A stretch of 32,909 nucleotides of DNA, from the NCBI GenBank assembly GCA_030523485.1, contig JAUNIJ010000003.1:1-32909 (forward strand), in the 5' to 3' direction. Both the position numbers and the translations under genes were made by a program. The notes under the pieces are model-generated. The model was not told the origin of the DNA. It saw only the letters and a list, made by a program, of their open reading frames with translations, and did no database searches. Positions within the stretch are counted from its first letter, which is position 1. Each line of letters opens with the position of its first letter. This document shows positions 6,738-19,346 of the stretch, piece by piece. This DNA comes from Bacteroidales bacterium (lineage in GTDB: Bacteria > Bacteroidota > Bacteroidia > Bacteroidales > Paludibacteraceae).

Positions 6738-8162
6738 ATGAAAACATCAACAAAAGATATCGATTGGGCTTTGGCACATTTTCATGTGTCGCAACCACTG
6801 CTCCAGCAAACATTAACAACTGCATTGGCACACGGAGGACAATTTGCTGATTTGTTTTTCGAACACACCAACGCATTTGCTATGACCGTGCGCGACGGAG
6901 AAGTGTCGTCGTGTTCGCGTAATGTTGACTACGGCGTAGGAGTTCGTTGCGTTGCCAACGAACACACTGGCTATGCATATTGTGAAGAAATCACTGCCGA
7001 CAATCTTCTTCATGCGGCAGAAGCTGCCTCACAGATTGCCAACACAACAGCCACACAACCATCTGCACCCTTTCAGATAAAGCCATACAAAAACCATTAC
7101 GCCATAACGACTCCACTGGAACAAATCGAAGTAACGGCTTTTCGCAAATGGTTGGAACTCTCGTCGGAATGGGCACATCAACAAGATTCACGCGTAGTGA
7201 AACTATCGGCAGCAGTAGCCTATAAATACTCACACATTCTGATTGCCACCTCCGATGGGGTGCTCGCCTACGATTTTCGTCCGATTACCACCTTCTCAGT
7301 ACAATGCGTAATGATGCAGAACGGACACTACGAATCGTCGTCAGAAGCATTGTCGTATCGCATGGGAGCCGAGTTTTTTTCCGACGACATGGTGAAGAAT
7401 GTAACCTCGAAAGCGGTGAAGAAGACAGCACGATTGTTCGACGCCGTACAACCCAAAGGAGGCGAAATGACTGTTGTGATGGGCGCTGGCAGTTCTGGCA
7501 TTTTGCTACACGAAGCCATCGGACACGCTTTTGAAGCCGACTTTAACAGAAAAAACACATCGATATTCTCCAACAAACTGGGTAAAAGCATCTGCTCATC
7601 AGACATTACGATTATTGACTCAGGCATACAACCCCAAAATCGTGGTGCAGTAAACGTAGACGACGAAGGCATCGCAGGACAAGAAACCGTGATCGTTGAC
7701 CACGGCACGCTGTCAAGCTATTTGCACGACCGCATCTCAGCAGCACACTACGGCGTAGAACCTACAGGCAACGGCCGACGCGACAACTTTCGCCAACCAC
7801 CAGTGCCACGCATGCGCTCTACCTATATGCTATCAGGGGAAAAGACTGCCGACGACCTCATAAAAGATGTCAAACAAGGCATTTTCCTTTCCGACTTTTC
7901 CAACGGACAAGTTAACATCGGCGTAGGCGATTTCACTTTCTACGCCCGCTTTGGATACCTGATAGAAAACGGACAACTCACACAACCCGTCAAAGACATC
8001 AACGTAATAGGCAACGGACCACAAGCCCTCGCCGACATCACCGCCGTGGCTGACAACCTCGAAATGGCAAACTCAACATGGATGTGCGGCAAAGCAGGAC
8101 AAAACGTACCTGTTTGTTGCGGTATGCCAACAGTGACGGTAAAGAAAATGATGGTGGGATAA
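6738..8162 (+). CDS. tldD: TldD-like zinc metalloprotease subunit
   Basis: This is the catalytic subunit of a TldD/TldE (PmbA) heterodimer, 474 residues. The zinc motif HExxxH is seen as HEAIGH at residues 258-263, followed by AFEAD. A C-terminal MCGKAGQ provides Cys450, matching the third metal ligand of E. coli TldD. In E. coli the TldD/E complex is a cytoplasmic peptidase that cleaves unfolded peptides and trims the leader of microcin B17. Here the partner gene starts 14 nt downstream and the pair heads an apparent six-gene unit that also holds lpxH, two lipoproteins and a radical SAM enzyme. The wider role in Bacteroidota is not known to me. Confidence 0.93.
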   Translation: MKTSTKDIDWALAHFHVSQPLLQQTLTTALAHGGQFADLFFEHTNAFAMTVRDGEVSSCSRNVDYGVGVRCVANEHTGYAYCEEITADNLLHAAEAASQIANTTATQPSAPFQIKPYKNHYAITTPLEQIEVTAFRKWLELSSEWAHQQDSRVVKLSAAVAYKYSHILIATSDGVLAYDFRPITTFSVQCVMMQNGHYESSSEALSYRMGAEFFSDDMVKNVTSKAVKKTARLFDAVQPKGGEMTVVMGAGSSGILLHEAIGHAFEADFNRKNTSIFSNKLGKSICSSDITIIDSGIQPQNRGAVNVDDEGIAGQETVIVDHGTLSSYLHDRISAAHYGVEPTGNGRRDNFRQPPVPRMRSTYMLSGEKTADDLIKDVKQGIFLSDFSNGQVNIGVGDFTFYARFGYLIENGQLTQPVKDINVIGNGPQALADITAVADNLEMANSTWMCGKAGQNVPVCCGMPTVTVKKMMVG

Positions 8163-8176
8163 AACAACAAAACACA

Positions 8177-9496
8177 ATGACACCAATCGCAAACTACGAA
8201 ACGCTACTACGCGAAATAATGCAACTGTCGCTTGACAACGGTTGTTCGGCATGTAAGATGACACTTGAGACCTACGAAGGGACAAAGATTGACATGCTGA
8301 ATGGCGACATCGACACGCTCAAACAAAGTTGCTCAAACGGATTACTCATTCGACTCTATCTGCCTGACGGCCGTTCTAATGTTGTTGCTACCAATCGCCT
8401 TGACAAACAAGAATTAGAAAACCTCGTACGACAAAGCATCGAGACAGCACGACTACTCGCACCCGATGCTGCACGCACACTACCTGACATAAAACGCTGC
8501 TATCGTCACGATGGGAAGACACTCGACCAATTCGACACCACATTCTTTGAACATAGCATCGAAGAAAAAACAGCACTGGTGAAAAAAGAAGCCAACGAAT
8601 TAAAAAACAAAGAGTGCATCATGTCGCGCTGCATCTACACCGACAGCGTGATGCAAGACCTCTATCTTACGTCGCATGGCCTCTGCCTGACAAGCCAAAC
8701 GACACAATATGCCATGACGACCATGGTAACACTTAAAGGACTGGGAGACGACCGTCCCAATGGCAGCGATTTTTGCCATCGCATCACCTTTGAAGAGATG
8801 CTAAAAGCCGTCGAACCTCTTGCAGCAACAGCCTGGCAACGTGCCAAAGCACAAATAGCACCACGTGTCTCTGCACAAGGCAATATGTCGATTGTTGTCG
8901 ACACACACTGTGTGCTTACACTCGTCGAACCACTTCTTGATGCTGCATCTGGCTCAGCCTTGCAACAACATAATTCCTTTCTACAAAAACATCATGGCAA
9001 ACGCATCGGCTCTGACCTCTTTAACCTCATCGACATCCCACACAAAAAACACACTCTCGGTGCACGCCTCTACGACTCCGAAGGACTGGCAACACACCGT
9101 CGATATTTCATTCACAACGGCATCTTACGCTCCTACTTCATCAACACCTACCACGCTAATAAGATGAAGATGAAACCCACCTGCGACGAGCCGTCGGTAC
9201 TCGTAATGCCCAAAGGAACACTTTCGCTACAAGAGATGCTCGCATCGATAGACAACGGCATCTATATCACCGACTTCATCGGAGGTAACTGCAACGATGC
9301 CACAGGAGATTTCTCGTTTGGCATTACTGGATTTATCGTAAAAGATGGTAAAATCGGAGCACCGCTTGTTGGACAAAATCTCAGCGGCAACATGCTCACA
9401 TTTTGGCAGCAACTCGCCGCTGTTGCCAACGACGCCGACCGACACAGTAGCGTACAGATTCCCTCACTTCTCTTCACCAACATCAACATCGCTTAA
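8177..9496 (+). CDS. tldE: TldE/PmbA-like subunit of the TldD/E protease
   Basis: This is the non-catalytic partner of TldD, 439 residues. It has the same overall PmbA/TldD fold signatures (NGLLIRLYLPDGR near the N-terminus; ITDFIGGNCNDATGDFSFGI and GKIGAPLVGQNLSGN near the C-terminus). It has no HExxxH zinc motif, as expected for the E subunit, which completes the active-site tunnel of the heterodimer. The ATG at 8177 lies 14 nt after the tldD stop and starts directly at the conserved N-terminal helix; an earlier in-frame start inside tldD (8078) is rejected. It is separated from lpxH by only 5 nt, so co-transcription is likely. Confidence 0.92.
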   Translation: MTPIANYETLLREIMQLSLDNGCSACKMTLETYEGTKIDMLNGDIDTLKQSCSNGLLIRLYLPDGRSNVVATNRLDKQELENLVRQSIETARLLAPDAARTLPDIKRCYRHDGKTLDQFDTTFFEHSIEEKTALVKKEANELKNKECIMSRCIYTDSVMQDLYLTSHGLCLTSQTTQYAMTTMVTLKGLGDDRPNGSDFCHRITFEEMLKAVEPLAATAWQRAKAQIAPRVSAQGNMSIVVDTHCVLTLVEPLLDAASGSALQQHNSFLQKHHGKRIGSDLFNLIDIPHKKHTLGARLYDSEGLATHRRYFIHNGILRSYFINTYHANKMKMKPTCDEPSVLVMPKGTLSLQEMLASIDNGIYITDFIGGNCNDATGDFSFGITGFIVKDGKIGAPLVGQNLSGNMLTFWQQLAAVANDADRHSSVQIPSLLFTNINIA

Positions 9497-10325: not shown

Positions 10326-10655
10326 ATGAAACAACGTACACTCACTTTTTTCAACCGCCTACTACTTTTAGCCATCGTTGCATTAGGCGTATGCAGTTGT
10401 AAAACAAAGCGTATTGCCAAAGACAGCAACAAAGACATCGAAATAGAATCGACCAAAACAATGCGATTGATGTACGGTGCACCACCAGTCAATTTCAGAG
10501 ACTCAGTAACAACAGACACCACTACAACACCAAACAAAACTGCAAGGGACACCATCAATCAACGCAAACTTAACCCTGGTATGATACACGTACTTTACGG
10601 TGTACGCCCCAGAGAATTCCAACAACCCAACGAAACAAAAAGCACACAAAAATAA
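10326..10655 (+). CDS. Small putative lipoprotein with duplicated YGxxPxxF motif
   Basis: I do not recognise a named family. The 109-residue product has a hydrophobic N-terminal signal ending GVCSC, with Cys25 the likely lipid anchor. The remaining 84 residues are polar, low in hydrophobic content and probably unstructured, with a Thr-rich middle. Two short similar segments stand out: YGAPPVNF at residues 50-57 and YGVRPREF at 91-98, each preceded by a Met and a short hydrophobic stretch. The next gene, also a lipoprotein, carries related MYGCP/MYGSP motifs beside its own anchor Cys, and the gene after that is a radical SAM enzyme. A role as a second substrate or partner of that enzyme is possible but unproven. 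Confidence 0.75.
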   Translation: MKQRTLTFFNRLLLLAIVALGVCSCKTKRIAKDSNKDIEIESTKTMRLMYGAPPVNFRDSVTTDTTTTPNKTARDTINQRKLNPGMIHVLYGVRPREFQQPNETKSTQK

Positions 10656-10671
10656 TAAAACCACCGCTGCT

Positions 10672-11124
10672 ATGAAAAAGAAATGGTTGAAAATCACCAA
10701 CGCACTCCTAATAGGAGCTTTGGGTGTTAGCTCATACTCTTGTGCTATGTACGGCTGTCCGATGTATGGCAGTCCTTACCCTTACGACGGAATCAACGGA
10801 GAATATTACGTGCAAGGCGTAGTAAAAGCCGAAGACTCAGTAGCTTTGGCTGGCATCAAAATTGAAATCTACGACGAAGTAGAACAAACCACCAACACCG
10901 CCTACACCGACGAAAATGGCAACTATCTCATTCGTCTAATTCATGCTGCTAGCAACCACATTTTCCAAATTACAGCTACCGACATCGACGGAGAAGAGAA
11001 CCACGGTGCTTACGAAGCAAAGGAACACGCTTTCATTCTGCCAGAATCAACACAGATGATTAACGTCGACTTCACATTGACAAAAATCACTCCAGAACCT
11101 GAAACCGAAGAACCAGCTCAGTAA
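10672..11124 (+). CDS. Radical SAM-associated putative lipoprotein
   Basis: The product has 150 residues. A signal peptide ends SSYSC (Cys24), followed at once by AMYGCPMYGSPYPYDG (25-40): two tandem MYGxP motifs, one containing Cys29. The remainder (about 45-140) looks like a small carboxypeptidase-regulatory-like beta domain (VQGVVKAEDSVALAGIKIEI, then TDENGNYLIRL), and the C-terminus is Glu/Pro-rich. This fits the database family of lipoproteins found next to a dedicated radical SAM protein in Bacteroidales (TIGR04134-type, from memory). The start at 10672 is the first Met giving a signal peptide; an upstream in-frame start lies inside the previous gene. The radical SAM gene follows after 27 nt. 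The anchor-proximal MYGxP region is the likeliest modification site, by inference. Confidence 0.85.
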   Translation: MKKKWLKITNALLIGALGVSSYSCAMYGCPMYGSPYPYDGINGEYYVQGVVKAEDSVALAGIKIEIYDEVEQTTNTAYTDENGNYLIRLIHAASNHIFQITATDIDGEENHGAYEAKEHAFILPESTQMINVDFTLTKITPEPETEEPAQ

Positions 11125-11151
11125 CAACACACCATCACTTGGGCTTAGTTT

Positions 11152-12234
11152 ATGAAAAACAACATTACGAAACTGGGGCTTAAAAAACGTGTAGCACTCG
11201 AGTTGAACCGTCGCTATCACCTCAACAATAAACAACTGCACCCATTGCAGCAACTGTTTTGGGAGTGCACTTTGAAATGCAACGTTCACTGCCGTCACTG
11301 TGGAAGCGATTGTAAAAGCGTGTCGGAAACTCCCGACATGCCACTCGACGACTTTCTACACGTCATCGACAACAGCATCACACCACATGTCGATCCTCAC
11401 AAAACGTTTATCATCATCTCAGGCGGAGAGCCATTGATGCGTCCTGATATCGAACGTTGCGGCACTGAACTCATTCGTCGAGGCTACCCTTGGGGCATGG
11501 TGACCAACGGTCTGTTCCTCACAAAAGAGAAACTTGACGCACTCATGCAAGCTGGGCTACACAGCATCACCGTAAGCATCGATGGTTTCGAAGATGATCA
11601 TAACTGGTTACGTGGACACAAACAAAGTTTTGAACGCGCTTCCGAAGCCATCAGAAACATTGCCGCTACGCCACACCTCACTTGGGATGTCGTGACCTGT
11701 GTCAACAAACGCACTTTACCAAAACTACCTGCATTCAAAGATTATCTCATCTCGCTCGGCGTAACTCATTGGCGTCTATTTAGCATCGTACCAATGGGAC
11801 GAGCAGCTAACGAACCAGACCTTCTCCTCTCGAACGACGAATACAAACAAATGATGGATTTTATTGTTGCCACTCGTCAAGAAGGACAGATAGAGGCATC
11901 GTTTGGTTGCGAAGGCTTTTTGGGCAGTTACGAGGGTGAAGTACGCAGCCATCTTTATCGCTGTGAAGCCGGCGTGAGCATCGCATCGATACTCATCGAT
12001 GGCAGCATCTCAGCATGTACCTCAGTGAGAGGGAAATACTACCAAGGCAACATCTATCGTGATGACTTTTGGGATGTTTGGGAAAACCGCTTTCAGCCCT
12101 ATCGCGACCGCAGTTGGATGAAAAACGGACAATGCGCCAACTGTAAAATGTGGCGCTACTGCGAAGGCAACGGCATGCATCTGCGACGCGAAGATGGCTC
12201 GCTGATGTTCTGTCATCTCGACCGACTGAAGTAA
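11152..12234 (+). CDS. Radical SAM/SPASM protein of the rSAM/lipoprotein system
   Basis: This is a 360-residue radical SAM enzyme. The 4Fe-4S/SAM motif CxxxCxxC is formed by Cys43, Cys47 and Cys50 (CNVHCRHC), and SGGEP (90-94) is the SAM-binding loop. The C-terminus is a SPASM domain with Cys271, G284-x4-Cys289, Cys328-x2-Cys331-x5-Cys337 and Cys354, enough to bind auxiliary clusters. SPASM enzymes commonly modify ribosomal peptides or proteins. The paired lipoprotein lies 27 nt upstream, matching the TIGR04133/TIGR04134 pairing as I remember it; the chemistry is, to my knowledge, not established. It is the last gene before a strong bidirectional hairpin. No separate RiPP-like short precursor was found nearby, so the lipoproteins are the natural candidate substrates. 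Confidence 0.92.
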   Translation: MKNNITKLGLKKRVALELNRRYHLNNKQLHPLQQLFWECTLKCNVHCRHCGSDCKSVSETPDMPLDDFLHVIDNSITPHVDPHKTFIIISGGEPLMRPDIERCGTELIRRGYPWGMVTNGLFLTKEKLDALMQAGLHSITVSIDGFEDDHNWLRGHKQSFERASEAIRNIAATPHLTWDVVTCVNKRTLPKLPAFKDYLISLGVTHWRLFSIVPMGRAANEPDLLLSNDEYKQMMDFIVATRQEGQIEASFGCEGFLGSYEGEVRSHLYRCEAGVSIASILIDGSISACTSVRGKYYQGNIYRDDFWDVWENRFQPYRDRSWMKNGQCANCKMWRYCEGNGMHLRREDGSLMFCHLDRLK

Positions 12235-12262: not shown

Positions 12263-12313
12263 GATAAAGTGAACCCCGAAAGTTTTTGTCTAACTTTCGG
12301 GGTTCACTTTATC
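12263..12313. terminator. Bidirectional hairpin between convergent genes
   Basis: This is a perfect 22-bp inverted repeat: the left arm 12263-12284 is the exact reverse complement of 12292-12313, with a 7-nt loop TTTGTCT. It lies between the radical SAM gene (plus) and the VOC gene (minus), which converge here. There is no clear T run on the plus strand outside the stem, but the outer stem is A/T-rich (GATAAAG/CTTTATC) and the position is ideal for terminating both units. Confidence 0.75.
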
Positions 12314-12340: not shown

Positions 12341-13399
12341 TTAATCTTTTACTCGCAAGAAACGTAGCGCTTTCGTCACCATGCGAGAGAGAGGTTTTTC
12401 AGGGTCTTTGCCTTTCAGGTGTAGATAGATGCCAAGCTTCTTTATCACGGGTATTTTGAACGTCTCGACAAACTCTATCAGCGTGCCGTCAGGGTCTTCT
12501 ACATAGGTGAAATGTCCGTCAGCCTCTCCCATTTGGAAATCAGCACCGCTGTCGCAAACAAACGGATGTCCGATAGCTTCGGCATCGCGACGCACCGCTT
12601 CCATGTTGCGCACATCGAAGCAGAGATGTATGAAACCAGGGTCGCCCCACCAACGATTTTCGTAAATCTTCTTGACAGGCTCAAAAGCTTGCACCAACTC
12701 AATGTAGGAAGTGCCCATGATTTCACATAATGGTCCACGCATCGGTTTCGACGTAGCGAGACGAACACGACGCAACTTACGGTTGCCACCAGGCACAGCA
12801 GCGAGATCAGCAAATTGTGCGGTCTCATCGTATACGACCTTATCGTAGCCTAACAGCGTGCCATAGAATGCCATCGACTTATCCATATCGCTAACACCAA
12901 TGACAGCGCCACCAGCACCACCCGTAGCAGCACCTGTTTCGGTGAATACATACGAATCTTCTTCGACATCGAAAATATTGCCGTAAGGGTCTTTCACAAA
13001 GAAATGACTAATGCCTGCGGGGTTTTTTACTACGTTGCCAAGGAATTCAATCTGAGGTTGTTGTTTGAGATGGTCGAATGCTTTTTGCACATCGGCACAT
13101 TTGATTTTTCCGATTTCGATGCCATAGTCACCCAATTCAACAGGTTGACTTATCCATCTGAGTTCACGATGCATAGGTTGCCATATTTCAAAACCGCCAC
13201 CTCCTTTGAGATTGATGGCAAGAATGGCCCAACGGTCCTGCGGTTTGCCACCAGTGTAAGGTAACATTCTCTCGGCAGTACCTTCTGCATCAAGAATTTT
13301 TACATCGCAGCCAAAAGCGTGACGATACCACGCAAAGGCCTCATTAACGTTAGGAATGCCAATACCAATTTGTTGCATTCCACAAATGATTTTTTCCAT
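12341..13399 (-). CDS. Two-domain VOC (glyoxalase/bleomycin-resistance fold) protein
   Basis: The product has 352 residues with two tandem VOC domains: about 5-150 (MQQIGIGIPNVNEAFAWY through SHFFVKDPYGNIFDVEED) and about 165-315 (GVSDMDKSMAFYGTLLGYD through VEDPDGTLIEFVET), plus a basic 35-residue tail. DPYGN and DPDGT, each followed by an acidic residue, are the usual end-of-domain metal-site motifs of VOC enzymes such as glyoxalase I and dioxygenases. The specific reaction cannot be told. It follows the SDR gene by 16 nt and is probably the last gene of the envelope unit. The neighbouring oxidoreductase hints at a shared small-molecule pathway, but this is inference. Confidence 0.85.
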   Translation of the reverse strand: MEKIICGMQQIGIGIPNVNEAFAWYRHAFGCDVKILDAEGTAERMLPYTGGKPQDRWAILAINLKGGGGFEIWQPMHRELRWISQPVELGDYGIEIGKIKCADVQKAFDHLKQQPQIEFLGNVVKNPAGISHFFVKDPYGNIFDVEEDSYVFTETGAATGGAGGAVIGVSDMDKSMAFYGTLLGYDKVVYDETAQFADLAAVPGGNRKLRRVRLATSKPMRGPLCEIMGTSYIELVQAFEPVKKIYENRWWGDPGFIHLCFDVRNMEAVRRDAEAIGHPFVCDSGADFQMGEADGHFTYVEDPDGTLIEFVETFKIPVIKKLGIYLHLKGKDPEKPLSRMVTKALRFLRVKD

Positions 13400-15048: not shown

Positions 15049-15570
15049 TTATTCTTGCAATAAGACTGTTAGTACGTAGGCGTTGAGGTCGATACAGCGT
15101 TTTGAGACGTAAAGTTCTGTGCCTTGATTAAACACGTAGTCGATGTTGTTGTTTTCTGCTACTAGCTTGATGGCAGCATCGACACGGGCATTAATTGGCT
15201 CGTAGAATTTGTTACGTTGCTGTTGAAGCGTTTCAGTGTAACGTTGTTTGAAGAGCACCATCCGTTTTTCAAGTTCTGTGATTTCTGTCATTCGAGCCAT
15301 ACGAATGGGTTCACTCATCGTTTTATTGTTTTCGATGTAGTGTTTCACTTTTTCGTTGTACTCTTGCTCCATACGTTGGTACTCCGTCTCAAATTCTGAT
15401 TGTTGTTTTGCCAACATAGCTTCTGCTTGAATTGCTGCTGGCAATGCGGCAACTATTTGTTGTCGGTTGAGGTAGCCAATGCGCATGCCCTCTTCTCGTT
15501 CAGTGGTTTGAGCCAAAACAGACAACGAGAGTAGTAGGCAGAGAACTGTGATCAGATAACGTGGTTTCAT
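15049..15570 (-). CDS. OmpH/Skp-like periplasmic chaperone (third copy)
   Basis: The 173-residue product has a signal peptide (MKPRYLITVLCLLLSLSVLAQ) and then the OmpH core: a short strand (RIGYLNRQQIVAALP), a long Glu/Gln-rich coiled-coil hairpin (about 40-130), and a closing segment AIKLVAENNNIDYVFNQGTELY. Skp-type trimers carry unfolded outer-membrane proteins across the periplasm to BamA. The ATG at 15570 is preferred over an alternative in-frame start at 15588 because it directly begins the signal peptide. It is the most divergent of three tandem copies and the only one separated from the others by a terminator-like hairpin (15581-15615). It is tightly linked to murI (5 nt). Confidence 0.85.
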   Translation of the reverse strand: MKPRYLITVLCLLLSLSVLAQTTEREEGMRIGYLNRQQIVAALPAAIQAEAMLAKQQSEFETEYQRMEQEYNEKVKHYIENNKTMSEPIRMARMTEITELEKRMVLFKQRYTETLQQQRNKFYEPINARVDAAIKLVAENNNIDYVFNQGTELYVSKRCIDLNAYVLTVLLQE

Positions 15571-15580
15571 CGTGGTACGG

Positions 15581-15615
15581 AAAAACAAAGACTACCCCCA
15601 CAGGAGAGTAGTCTT
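15581..15615 (-). terminator. Terminator-like hairpin between the second and third ompH copies
   Basis: On the minus strand an 8-bp perfect stem (AAGACTAC/GTAGTCTT; plus-strand arms 15588-15595 and 15608-15615) with a 12-nt loop is followed by a T-rich tail TTTGTTTTT, ending 11 nt before the third ompH start. It has the form of an intrinsic terminator or attenuator inside the gene cluster. Confidence 0.6.
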
Positions 15616-15632
15616 ATGCTTATGATGGTTGA

Positions 15633-16139
15633 TTATAATATGCCAAGTTCTTTTTTTACTTGAGACGATACGTCGACGGCATTATCGCCTTTATAAAGTA
15701 TCGAGCCAACGGAGATATCAAAGATAAAAATGTAGCCGTTTTTCTTACCTACTTTTTCTATAGCATCGCGTATGCGTTGGTTGACTGGTTCGATGAGTTC
15801 TGCTTGTTTCTTTTGTGTTTCAGCCTGTAGGGTTTGATAGGCAGTCTGATAGCGTTGATACATAGCTTGTAGCTCCTCTTCTGTAACCTTACGGATTGCA
15901 TCAGGAAGTTTATCTTTTTCTTGTTCGTACTTTTCAGCTTTTTCTGAGAATTCCTGTTCCATAGCTTGCATGTACTCCAGGTTTTTAGCATTGTATTCCG
16001 ACATTTCTTTTTCGATACTGTCGAGTTCAGGCATTAACGAGAAGATTTCTTGAGCATTAATGTAGCCCATTTTAATGCTTTGCGCATTAACGAGGAAAGG
16101 AACGATTGCCAAAATGGCAACAAAAAATAATTTCTTCAT
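15633..16139 (-). CDS. OmpH/Skp-like periplasmic chaperone (second copy)
   Basis: The product has 168 residues with a signal peptide MKKLFFVAILAIVPFLVNAQ. The mature OmpH domain begins IKMGYINAQEIFSLMPELDS, followed by a long Glu/Lys/Gln-rich coiled-coil hairpin (about 40-125) and a terminal IEKVGKKNGYIFIFDISVG strand region. The expected role is to chaperone unfolded outer-membrane proteins toward BamA. It ends at the Leu of the KKELGIL tail. It is followed by a terminator-like hairpin, so the core porG-uppS-bamA-ompH-ompH transcript may mostly end here. Confidence 0.88.
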   Translation of the reverse strand: MKKLFFVAILAIVPFLVNAQSIKMGYINAQEIFSLMPELDSIEKEMSEYNAKNLEYMQAMEQEFSEKAEKYEQEKDKLPDAIRKVTEEELQAMYQRYQTAYQTLQAETQKKQAELIEPVNQRIRDAIEKVGKKNGYIFIFDISVGSILYKGDNAVDVSSQVKKELGIL

Positions 16140-16183
16140 TTTCTATTCTTTAGGTATTAATTTTCACTTGATATTACTGTTGT

Positions 16184-16708
16184 TTATTTTGCATAGCCAA
16201 GTTTGACGAGGACTTCGTCGCTGACGTCGATTTTCGGTGCTACAAAGATGAGTCCGACCGTCGATGCTTTGTCGAGTATGATTTGGTAGCCCTTTTCGTT
16301 GCAGTATTCTTGTAAGGCGTTGTAAATCTCATCTTGTATTGGTTTCATCAAGCTTTCGCGCTTTTTGAAGAGGTCACCGTCAGCACCAAAGTATTTTCGT
16401 TTTAAATCGTTGGCTTGACGTTCTTTGTTTAAGATTGCTTCTTCGCGTTGTGTTTTCATCTCTGCTGAAAGAAAGACTTGTTCTGTCTGATATGCTTTGT
16501 ACATGTTCTGCACTTCAGTAAGTAGTGCTTCCACCTCTTTCTGCCATTTTTTCGACAGTTGTGAGAGTTGTTCGTTGGCTGTTTCGTAGGCAGGAACAGC
16601 TTTGAGGATGTATTCCATATCAATAACCGCTACTTTTTGAGCGTTGGTATTCATTACTCCGACGAGGAGCAATGCACACAAAGAAACGAGGACTTTTTTC
16701 ATATTCAT
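16184..16708 (-). CDS. OmpH/Skp-like periplasmic chaperone (first copy)
   Basis: The product has 174 residues with a signal peptide (KKVLVSLCALLLVGVMNTNAQ) and a mature start QKVAVIDMEYILKAVPAYE, the most canonical OmpH N-terminus of the three copies. A coiled-coil hairpin covers about residues 40-130 and the closing element is EYCNEKGYQIILDKAS. The Met at position 3 (16702) may be the real start. It directly follows bamA (40-nt gap), as in most Gram-negative skp genes, so it is probably the main Skp orthologue. Confidence 0.88.
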   Translation of the reverse strand: MNMKKVLVSLCALLLVGVMNTNAQKVAVIDMEYILKAVPAYETANEQLSQLSKKWQKEVEALLTEVQNMYKAYQTEQVFLSAEMKTQREEAILNKERQANDLKRKYFGADGDLFKKRESLMKPIQDEIYNALQEYCNEKGYQIILDKASTVGLIFVAPKIDVSDEVLVKLGYAK

Positions 16709-16748
16709 TTTCTGTTTTCTTTATTTGACATGCTGTGATACAAAAGGT

Positions 16749-19346
16749 TTAGAACTCTTGTCCGAGCACGAATGTGAACTGACTCTTTGAATTGTCGCGT
16801 GAGCCACGTATCGCATCGAAGCCATAGCCCCAGTCGACACCTAACAGTCCGAACATAGGCAAGTAGACACGCACACCAACACCAGCAGAGCGTTTGAGGT
16901 CGAATGGGTTGAACTCTTTAAAGTTTGCCCAACAGTTGCCCGCTTCGAGGAAAGCAAGTGCCCAGATGCAGGTGCTTCCTTGCATCATGATAGGGTAACG
17001 GAGTTCAACAGTTGCACGTGTGTAAAGATTGCCATTGTAGTTGCCGTTAGCATCCAATGGGGTTAATGATGAAGAGGCATAACCACGTAATCCAATTTGT
17101 TCTGAACCAACGGAGGTATAGCCCGACATACCATCGCCACCGACATAGAATTTCTCAAATGGTGATACTTTATTTTTATTGTATGAGCCTAAGAATCCGT
17201 ATTCAAGGCGGCACATCAGCACCAGTTTTTCGTCGTGAGTAAGTGGAGTGAATATTTTACCACCAATTTTCCATTTGTGATATTCTATCCACTTGTGTTT
17301 TTGTGCATCGGTAGCGGTGCTGTAGTCGACTTTATCCCAGGCAGAATAAGGAGGAGTAGCACTGACAGAGAATGAGAATGCAGAACCGCGTCGTGTGTAG
17401 ATGGGGTTATCGATAGAGTTACGTCCGAGCGTTAGATTCAACGAGAGATTGTTGGCGATGCCATCTGAGAAGCCATAATAGTAGGAGTACCAGTTTTTCA
17501 AATTGAAATGTTGGTAGGCCAACTCTGCATAGAAGGTGAAGTAGTCGTCGGGCCAATTGAGACGTGTGCCGAAGCCAAGACTTGCGCCAAACACACGCAC
17601 GTGTTTGTTGGAGTCGTATTCTGGTGTTGTATAACTACTATTGCCATAGGTAGAGCCGTATTGGTTGTAATAGTAATTATAGCTGTTGTAATAGGAGCTA
17701 TTTAATGATTTTAAATAGCGTTCTGAATAACCTGTTTGTATTGAATAGTAAACGCCTAAAGACAACGAGTTAGGACGTTTGCCGCCAAGCCATGGTTCGT
17801 AGAATGAGAGGCTGTAGTTTTGGTAGTATTTACCATTTGTTTGTATCTTCAGTGCAAAAGTTTGTCCCTCACCTTGAGGCACCACATGATACATTTTTGG
17901 TTTGAAGAGGTTTTGAATTGCAAAGTTGGTAAATTTCACGCCGACAGAGACAACAGGTCCTGACTGTCCCCAACCAGCAGAAAATTCGAATTGGTCGCTA
18001 TTTTTACTTTCCAAGTTATAAGTTAAGTCGACGGTACCATCTTCTACATTGGGTTGTACATCAATACCGCTATAAAGTTTTTCTTCAACAAAATATTGAA
18101 GTTGTGCGATATCACGTAATGAACGTATGATATCGCTTTGACTATAAAGTTGTCCCGGTCGCGTACGAAGTTCGCGTCGAATGACATGTTCATATACTCT
18201 GTCGTTACCTTTAATAGTGACATTATTAATGGTGGCAGGTTGTCCTTCGTACATGCGCATCTCATAGTTGATGGTGTCGCCATTAAATCCCACTTCTACG
18301 GGGTCGACGTTAAAGAAGAGATAACCACGATCGCGATAGAGTGCGCCGACAGCATCTTCGTCTTGATCAAGGCGTTTCTCAAGATGTTTTAAGTTGTAGG
18401 TGTCACCTTTTTTGATGTTTAAATATCTGCTAAGTAGCTCGCTGGAATAAAGTGTGTTACCACTCCATGTGATGTCGCCAAAATAGTATTTTTTTCCTTC
18501 TTCTACCCAAAGATAGAGGTTAACGTGTTCGTCGTCGACTTTTGCCACACTATCTTTTAATAAAATAGCATCGCGGTAACCTATTTCGTTATATTTAGCT
18601 ATAACAGACTGTTTATCTTCTTCGTAAGTTGATTGCACGAATTTCTTCGGACGGAAAAGATTGACCAATACCGATCGGTTGGTTTTTTTCATTGCACGGT
18701 CAATTTGATTCACCGTCAATGCATTATTACCAACAATAAACATTTGGTTTACTTTTACTTTGTTCTTTTTGTCAACACTAATGTCAAGAGTGACGCTACC
18801 TGGTGTTGTGGGGTCTTTTTTCTGATAAATCAGTACGTCGGTATTTAGATATCCTTTTTCAGCGAAGTGTTTCTTAATCAATATTTTTGAGCGGTCGATG
18901 AGGTCTGGAGTTACTTGAGCGCCGACATTCAAACCAGCTTGCGGTTCTACGTCTTCGCGTTCTCCTTGACGCATACCATAATAGTTGATTTTTGAGATTC
19001 GCGGCCGTTGTTGCAATGCGATGGTAAGCCAAATACTGTCGCGTGCAATACTATCGGCATAGATTTTCACGTCGGAGAAAAGTCCTTGCTTCCAAAATCT
19101 ATTTACTGCACTGGAAATGTCGTTACCTGGCACTTTGATGGTTTTGCCAACCGATAAACCCGAGAAACTTATTAAGACATAGTCTTCATAGGTATCTGAG
19201 CCTGTTAATTTAATGTCAGCAATGGTGAGTGTTTTGGGAGTACTGGTGTAATCGATTTCGAGTTCGCCATGCTCTTGTGCACGGAGTGTCGAAACTGTCA
19301 CCAGTAGTAACAATATCACGATTAAGATATTTTGTTGTCGTATCAT
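16749..19346 (-). CDS. bamA: Outer-membrane protein assembly factor BamA
   Basis: This is the Omp85-family insertase of the BAM complex, 865 residues. After the signal peptide (cleavage after LRAQ, residue 24) come five POTRA domains, judged from the repeated strand/GN-turn pattern: about 40-113, 116-192, 195-281, 285-366 and 370-445. A 16-stranded beta-barrel follows from about 450. The conserved loop-6 motif appears as GLRGYAS, and the barrel ends in Phe (VLGQEF), a typical outer-membrane C-terminal signal. An insertion very rich in Tyr, Asn and Ser at about residues 543-581 lies in a predicted surface loop. A small 7-bp inverted repeat (TGTTGTC/GACAACA, 19370-19393) sits in the gap to uppS. 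The product is essential for outer-membrane biogenesis in other species. Confidence 0.95.
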   Translation of the reverse strand: MIRQQNILIVILLLLVTVSTLRAQEHGELEIDYTSTPKTLTIADIKLTGSDTYEDYVLISFSGLSVGKTIKVPGNDISSAVNRFWKQGLFSDVKIYADSIARDSIWLTIALQQRPRISKINYYGMRQGEREDVEPQAGLNVGAQVTPDLIDRSKILIKKHFAEKGYLNTDVLIYQKKDPTTPGSVTLDISVDKKNKVKVNQMFIVGNNALTVNQIDRAMKKTNRSVLVNLFRPKKFVQSTYEEDKQSVIAKYNEIGYRDAILLKDSVAKVDDEHVNLYLWVEEGKKYYFGDITWSGNTLYSSELLSRYLNIKKGDTYNLKHLEKRLDQDEDAVGALYRDRGYLFFNVDPVEVGFNGDTINYEMRMYEGQPATINNVTIKGNDRVYEHVIRRELRTRPGQLYSQSDIIRSLRDIAQLQYFVEEKLYSGIDVQPNVEDGTVDLTYNLESKNSDQFEFSAGWGQSGPVVSVGVKFTNFAIQNLFKPKMYHVVPQGEGQTFALKIQTNGKYYQNYSLSFYEPWLGGKRPNSLSLGVYYSIQTGYSERYLKSLNSSYYNSYNYYYNQYGSTYGNSSYTTPEYDSNKHVRVFGASLGFGTRLNWPDDYFTFYAELAYQHFNLKNWYSYYYGFSDGIANNLSLNLTLGRNSIDNPIYTRRGSAFSFSVSATPPYSAWDKVDYSTATDAQKHKWIEYHKWKIGGKIFTPLTHDEKLVLMCRLEYGFLGSYNKNKVSPFEKFYVGGDGMSGYTSVGSEQIGLRGYASSSLTPLDANGNYNGNLYTRATVELRYPIMMQGSTCIWALAFLEAGNCWANFKEFNPFDLKRSAGVGVRVYLPMFGLLGVDWGYGFDAIRGSRDNSKSQFTFVLGQEF

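Follow-up and report, generated by a model that had tools for sequence, protein, structure and literature searches.

An XYGxP motif in lipoproteins adjoining a radical SAM/SPASM enzyme of Bacteroidales points to a possible splicease-like modification

Introduction

The PlpXY splicease of Pleurocapsa and its products, the spliceotides, were reportedly described by Morinaka in 2018 and Scott in 2022. PlpX, a radical SAM (rSAM)/SPASM enzyme, cuts tyramine from Xaa-Tyr-Gly, and the backbone is rejoined as an alpha-ketoamide (PMC11002830). The natural sites of PlpXY are MYG and LYG; the splice tag GPIRPLYGLPI is itself of the form XYGxP, and every excision of tyramine (C8H9NO) shifts the mass by -135.0757 Da (PMC10533398). 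Several splicing events per precursor are possible via its XYG sites, and spliceotides act as protease inhibitors (PMC10373908, PMC11117315).

The pairing of an rSAM enzyme with a lipoprotein, which is the subject of this study, is already curated as NCBIfam TIGR04133/TIGR04134 (rSAM_w_lipo/lipo_with_rSAM), two "hypothetical equivalogs" without known chemistry. Our literature searches, which lay outside the primary splicease papers, found no papers on TIGR04133, TIGR04134, or the "SAM-associated putative lipoprotein", and none that gives TIGR04133 a function; the 939 splicease systems that PMC10533398 cites as predicted may already include it. The initial annotation of the locus described below had called the pairing known and its chemistry undescribed. 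This agrees with the curated families, while its suggestion of an unusual class of modification need not hold, as XYG is a known splicease site.

Two lipoproteins precede a radical SAM/SPASM enzyme

The window analyzed here, a 32,909-nt stretch of DNA from a Bacteroidales bacterium, encodes on its plus strand lipoprotein 1, lipoprotein 2, and an rSAM/SPASM enzyme in a row. Lipoprotein 1 (109 aa; 10326-10655) is a predicted substrate recognized by its open reading frame and lipobox. Its signal peptide ends in FNRLLLLAIVALGVCS directly before the lipid Cys (lipobox GVCS, then C), and its mature part is of low complexity. The protein has no family assignment: it showed (i) no Pfam match, (ii) no NCBIfam match above threshold, with a sub-threshold match of the PG1828 type restricted to the signal peptide region, and (iii) no match to TIGR04134 (cut-off 39.8 bits). 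It carries two motifs, MYGAPP and LYGVRP; the former holds site 1 (M-Y-G-A-P, followed by PVNF; 10470-10484), which is backed by both the sequence and the motif statistics given below, and the latter is site 2 (L-Y-G-V-R-P, followed by REF; 10593-10610), a YGxxP variant.

Lipoprotein 2 (150 aa; 10672-11124), also a predicted substrate, scored 51.7 bits against TIGR04134, above the cut-off of 39.8, has a lipobox, and lies next to the TIGR04133 enzyme; its score on PF13620 (28.9 bits) is slightly below the cut-off of 32.3. A GTG at 10600 lies in the same frame, but the signal peptide comes from the ATG at 10672. The mature N-terminus reads C24-A-MYGCP-MYGSP, in agreement with the two tandem MYGxP motifs that had been proposed there; site 3 (M-Y-G-C-P; 10747-10761) thus begins two residues past the lipid Cys and is followed directly by site 4 (M-Y-G-S-P; 10762-10776). 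In the AlphaFold2 model, strands span residues 43-136, whereas residues 20-39, which hold both XYGxP sites, largely have pLDDT values below 50. Lipoprotein 2 is therefore predicted to consist of a low-confidence tail after the lipid Cys, followed by a carboxypeptidase-regulatory-like beta-sandwich.

The enzyme gene (360 aa; 11152-12234) starts 27 nt after that of lipoprotein 2, and all coordinates and cysteines given in the initial annotation proved correct. The protein scored 596.8 bits against TIGR04133 (cut-off 425) over positions 1-349 of 350 of the profile, and contains the domains PF04055 and PF13186. Its radical SAM motif is C43-x3-C47-x2-C50, and its six invariant C-terminal cysteines are C271, C289, C328, C331, C337, and C354, so that its assignment as a SPASM-type radical SAM enzyme stands. 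The AlphaFold2 model (pLDDT 89.7) matched SkfB, anSME, SuiB, and PqqE in Foldseek, and the predicted fold is that of a general SPASM peptide maturase; a PDB sequence search with the enzyme returned general rSAM relatives only. We predict that the enzyme modifies XYG sites, for the reasons developed below.

Downstream, a perfect 22-bp inverted repeat with a 7-nt loop (12263-12313, no strand assigned) is likely a bidirectional terminator that closes the operon. Across it lies, convergent with the rSAM gene, an opposite-strand gene for a 352-aa protein (12341-13399) that by eye resembles a two-domain glyoxalase/VOC-like protein. Just upstream of the locus, a TldD/TldE-like metalloprotease pair (6738-9496) was also recognized by eye. 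Elsewhere, TldD/TldE pairs function in RiPP leader processing; across 80 TIGR04133 loci, neither TldD/TldE nor LpxH was found in a conserved operon with the enzyme. Further along, the minus strand carries three successive Skp/OmpH-like genes next to one that is BamA-like (15049-19346, by eye).

The XYGxP motif is conserved next to the enzyme

TIGR04133 loci were gathered by genome searches and a contig scan, and 102 lipoproteins adjoining the enzymes were picked by lipobox and position only, blind to the motif. YGxP was present in 88 of these 102 lipoproteins, compared with a mean of 1.8 and a maximum of 8 in 2000 shuffles; the runner-up pattern of the same form occurred in 27. Of 51 other lipoproteins encoded at these loci, 50 lacked it. 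In 134 loci, the 1.2-kb stretches preceding the enzyme contained 198 occurrences of.YG.P in forward frames versus 36 in reverse frames, with at least one in 113 loci and none in the remaining 21, while downstream of the enzyme the counts were 19 forward and 11 reverse. With its four sites and adjacent genes, the window conforms to this arrangement.

Among 12 aligned TIGR04134-type lipoproteins, the others being 20-35% identical to that of the window, the Y, G, and P of site 4 are invariant, and the short lipoproteins linked to TIGR04133 have little else in common beyond the lipid Cys and the signal peptide. The Y-G-x-P part of the motif is thus kept much more strictly than the remainder of the lipoprotein, as the initial annotation had asked of its MYGxP segment. 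Its methionine did not hold up: the Tyr is mostly preceded by E, M, K, L, or A, and because this first residue varies, we define the motif as XYGxP. An aromatic residue follows at Tyr+7 in about two thirds of cases, and proteins carry one to four copies. A position beside the lipid anchor is common (median distance from the Cys to the first Tyr, 11 residues) but is not a rule, with some sites located mid-protein or near the C-terminus. A Bacteroidetes LES-type surface export signal was considered as an explanation of the motif and discarded, given the repeated copies and their occasional location near the C-terminus.

The enzyme-linked lipoproteins also stand out in their signal peptides. An LG[FLVIMY] sequence within seven residues of the Cys occurs in 64 of 88 of them versus 2 of 51 control lipoproteins, with Asn frequent upstream of it, and the L-G feature is found in both window lipoproteins (IVALGVCS and IGALGVSSYS). 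Five loci (L124, L142, L147, L149, and L166) encode recurrent PG1828-like lipoproteins of ∼65 aa upstream of the rSAM gene, with CYGPxP or CYAPxP after the signal peptide IKLCxLTGVAFTFAA.

The motif tracks the enzyme across genomes

In an order-wide sample, 53 of 57 genomes with TIGR04134 also had TIGR04133 (p=2e-35), as did 72 of 80 in a sample of the window's own family (p=8e-30). Because profile searches for TIGR04133 overlooked a few enzymes (in genomes G636, G883, and G949, where the genes are present but were missed by the profile or split between contigs or frames), absence of the enzyme was re-tested with the protein itself. In the remaining eight genomes, this protein search found no TIGR04133-like enzyme (in G696, only a 24%-identical rSAM protein), and in seven of the eight, YGxP was lost from the TIGR04134 protein. 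The losses often spare the following residues (GNGSPYAKF, DNKTPHADY, and KEIDYADF); in one of the seven (G618), YG is kept and the Pro is gone. The eighth genome (G881, 76% complete) keeps VYGCP. Most TIGR04134 proteins of the enzyme-less genomes still have a lipobox.

By comparison, 102 of 117 TIGR04134 proteins in enzyme-bearing genomes keep the motif. Several of these are encoded away from the enzyme, which suggests that it acts in trans. The losses are spread over six genera and two families, two of the eight enzyme-less genomes being only 75-76% complete, and a sign test for independent YG losses had only two usable pairs on a poorly resolved lipoprotein tree. That the motif is kept with the enzyme and mostly lost without it suggests that the enzyme chemically edits the lipoproteins at this motif, and supports the earlier view of the two genes as a modification pair. 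The link between enzyme and XYGxP is an addition to the curated TIGR04133/TIGR04134 pair, to which the window otherwise corresponds, with a lipoprotein directly upstream of the enzyme and both genes above their cut-offs; the window departs from the family definition in its second lipoprotein (lipoprotein 1), which falls outside TIGR04134.

Comparison with the PlpXY splicease

The likeness to PlpXY lies in an rSAM/SPASM enzyme that adjoins XYG-bearing substrates (the four sites of the window being MYG or LYG), in the possibility of several sites per substrate, and in the YGLP of the splice tag. Likeness to the PlpX family itself was judged by the score on TIGR04103, which we take to be PlpX's own family (IPR026482 in PMC11002830). 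Here the two systems differ: the window enzyme scored 117.5 bits, far from the cut-off of 725 and below NirJ2 (122 bits). A search of 198 Bacteroidota genomes found no TIGR04103 member above the cut-off. The window enzyme lacks one residue of the C-x2-C-x5-C-x3-C cluster, the fourth Cys, which the XYG-rSAM relatives have. In the enzyme tree, the branch of TIGR04133 is long and its position among the XYG-rSAMs lacks support, and we therefore dropped phylogeny as proof of splicease membership.

The substrates also differ, PlpXY acting on peptides that have Nif11 or nitrile-hydratase leaders and the window enzyme having signal-peptide-bearing lipoproteins as its candidates. Moreover, no gene for a conserved RRE partner, a peptidase, or an exporter was seen at the TIGR04133 loci; clustering of open reading frames of at least 80 aa in 80 loci yielded no conserved RRE or PlpY-like third gene. 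In three loci (L064, L091, and L092), the TIGR04133 genes are tandemly duplicated, and in the latter two an XYG lipoprotein lies between the duplicates.

A model for the locus and its alternatives

We propose that the three genes would form a self-contained protein-modification operon. The two pre-lipoproteins would be made in the cytoplasm, and their signal peptides, which are atypical (...N...L-G-[FVIL]...C), could serve both as the export signal and as a leader recognized by the enzyme. The TIGR04133 enzyme would then act on Tyr-Gly at every XYGxP site, presumably before export. Given sites with a variable X and a fixed Y-G, a target motif identical to that of the spliceases, and the neighboring families described below, we somewhat favor a splicease-like modification of the pre-lipoproteins as the overall explanation. 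The parts of this model differ in strength. XYGxP is very probably the site at which the enzyme acts; for the chemistry, we lean towards excision of tyramine, as predicted by analogy with PlpX, at up to four sites in the window, with X being Met or Leu.

A different rSAM/SPASM reaction on the Tyr or on X (cross-link, thioether, epimerization, oxidation, or decarboxylation) would leave XYGxP as the modified element, and the general SPASM peptide maturase fold shared with SkfB, anSME, and SuiB is as compatible with it as is the placement of TIGR04133, which shows no specific affinity to TIGR04103. Also in its favor are two extra features of the sites, Pro at Tyr+3 and an aromatic residue at Tyr+7. 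Nevertheless, X varies while Y and G are fixed, as expected for splicing at XYG, and a cross-link would lack any conserved partner residue except the loosely conserved aromatic one, so we hold a different reaction to be possible but rather unlikely. We find it improbable that XYGxP is a docking element and that some other residue of the lipoprotein, or the lipid Cys, is modified: docking would equally explain why the motif tracks the enzyme, but the short lipoproteins have almost nothing else in common except the lipid Cys and the signal peptide, and because the motif occurs in one to four copies, also near the C-terminus, a target fits better than a single dock.

The frequent location of the site near the lipid Cys would also suit a motif for export, sorting, or surface binding that is unrelated to the enzyme, the genes adjoining for some other reason. 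This we consider very improbable, since the motif is missing from nearly all other lipoproteins of the same loci and from most enzyme-less genomes although the lipobox mostly persists there, whereas several lipoproteins distant from the enzyme keep it where the genome has the enzyme.

Under the splicease-like modification that we favor, the lipidated proteins would display a reactive ketoamide, which in lipoprotein 2 would lie on the predicted flexible tail between the anchor and the beta-sandwich. Such an anchored electrophile would, speculatively, most likely be a protease inhibitor with the variable X as its P1 residue, and inhibition of proteases at the surface by the modified lipoproteins is likewise speculation. 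As a tentative and rather doubtful extension, Bacteroidales may widely carry lipid-anchored surface proteins with backbone ketoamides made by the enzyme, for which the signal peptide is also the leader, neither an RRE nor a leader protease is required, and X sets the P1 specificity of a tethered covalent protease inhibitor.

TIGR04133 was found above its cut-off in 86 of 393 sampled Bacteroidales genomes (about a fifth) and in 86 of 200 genomes of the window's own family (about two fifths), with hosts that include gut and rumen bacteria. The XYG link provides a specific prediction for TIGR04133, namely a loss of 135.08 Da per site. If it is true, backbone-edited residues would be common in Bacteroidales lipoproteins and would matter for proteolysis, host contact, and protein-labeling tools.

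Relatives and neighboring rSAM families

Neighboring rSAM families also came up with the TIGR04133 profile. TIGR03913, the "GDL motif peptide" rSAM family, resembles TIGR04133 in cross-family HMM similarity and in its adjacent multi-copy small proteins with mostly N-terminal XYG. When five sister rSAM proteins were scanned, TIGR03913 and TIGR04103 were the best two models and TIGR04133 the third or fourth. TIGR03913-type enzymes of a Flavobacteriia-class group (flavobacterial, at a guess), Aureibacter, and Azospirillum adjoin several DUF1843 proteins, most of which start with motifs like MPYGVAI or MLYGGA. In contrast to the TIGR04133 lipoproteins, the DUF1843 proteins lack both a signal peptide and a Pro following YG, and in some copies the Gly is missing (PMYMAT and VLYAAG); the TIGR03913 enzymes are about 475-518 aa long, with a C-terminal extension. 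In a Bacteroidales locus (L005:1504-3644), a 487-aa rSAM protein precedes a 216-aa protein that contains six repeats of KYGYP, resembles a multi-core XYG precursor, and has no family assignment. Before an Agathobacter enzyme lies a short reading frame with PVMYGTGVRM near its end.

Outside Bacteroidota, a plasmid of Treponema saccharophilum bears the TIGR04133/lipoprotein pair, with an enzyme 46% identical to that of the window and a higher score on TIGR04053 than on TIGR04103. Its lipoprotein contains CYGMP, in which the lipid Cys itself is X. On this plasmid (pTS1; L175:2806-3450), the pair adjoins the gene for an Mpi-family DNA invertase, which might phase-vary it.
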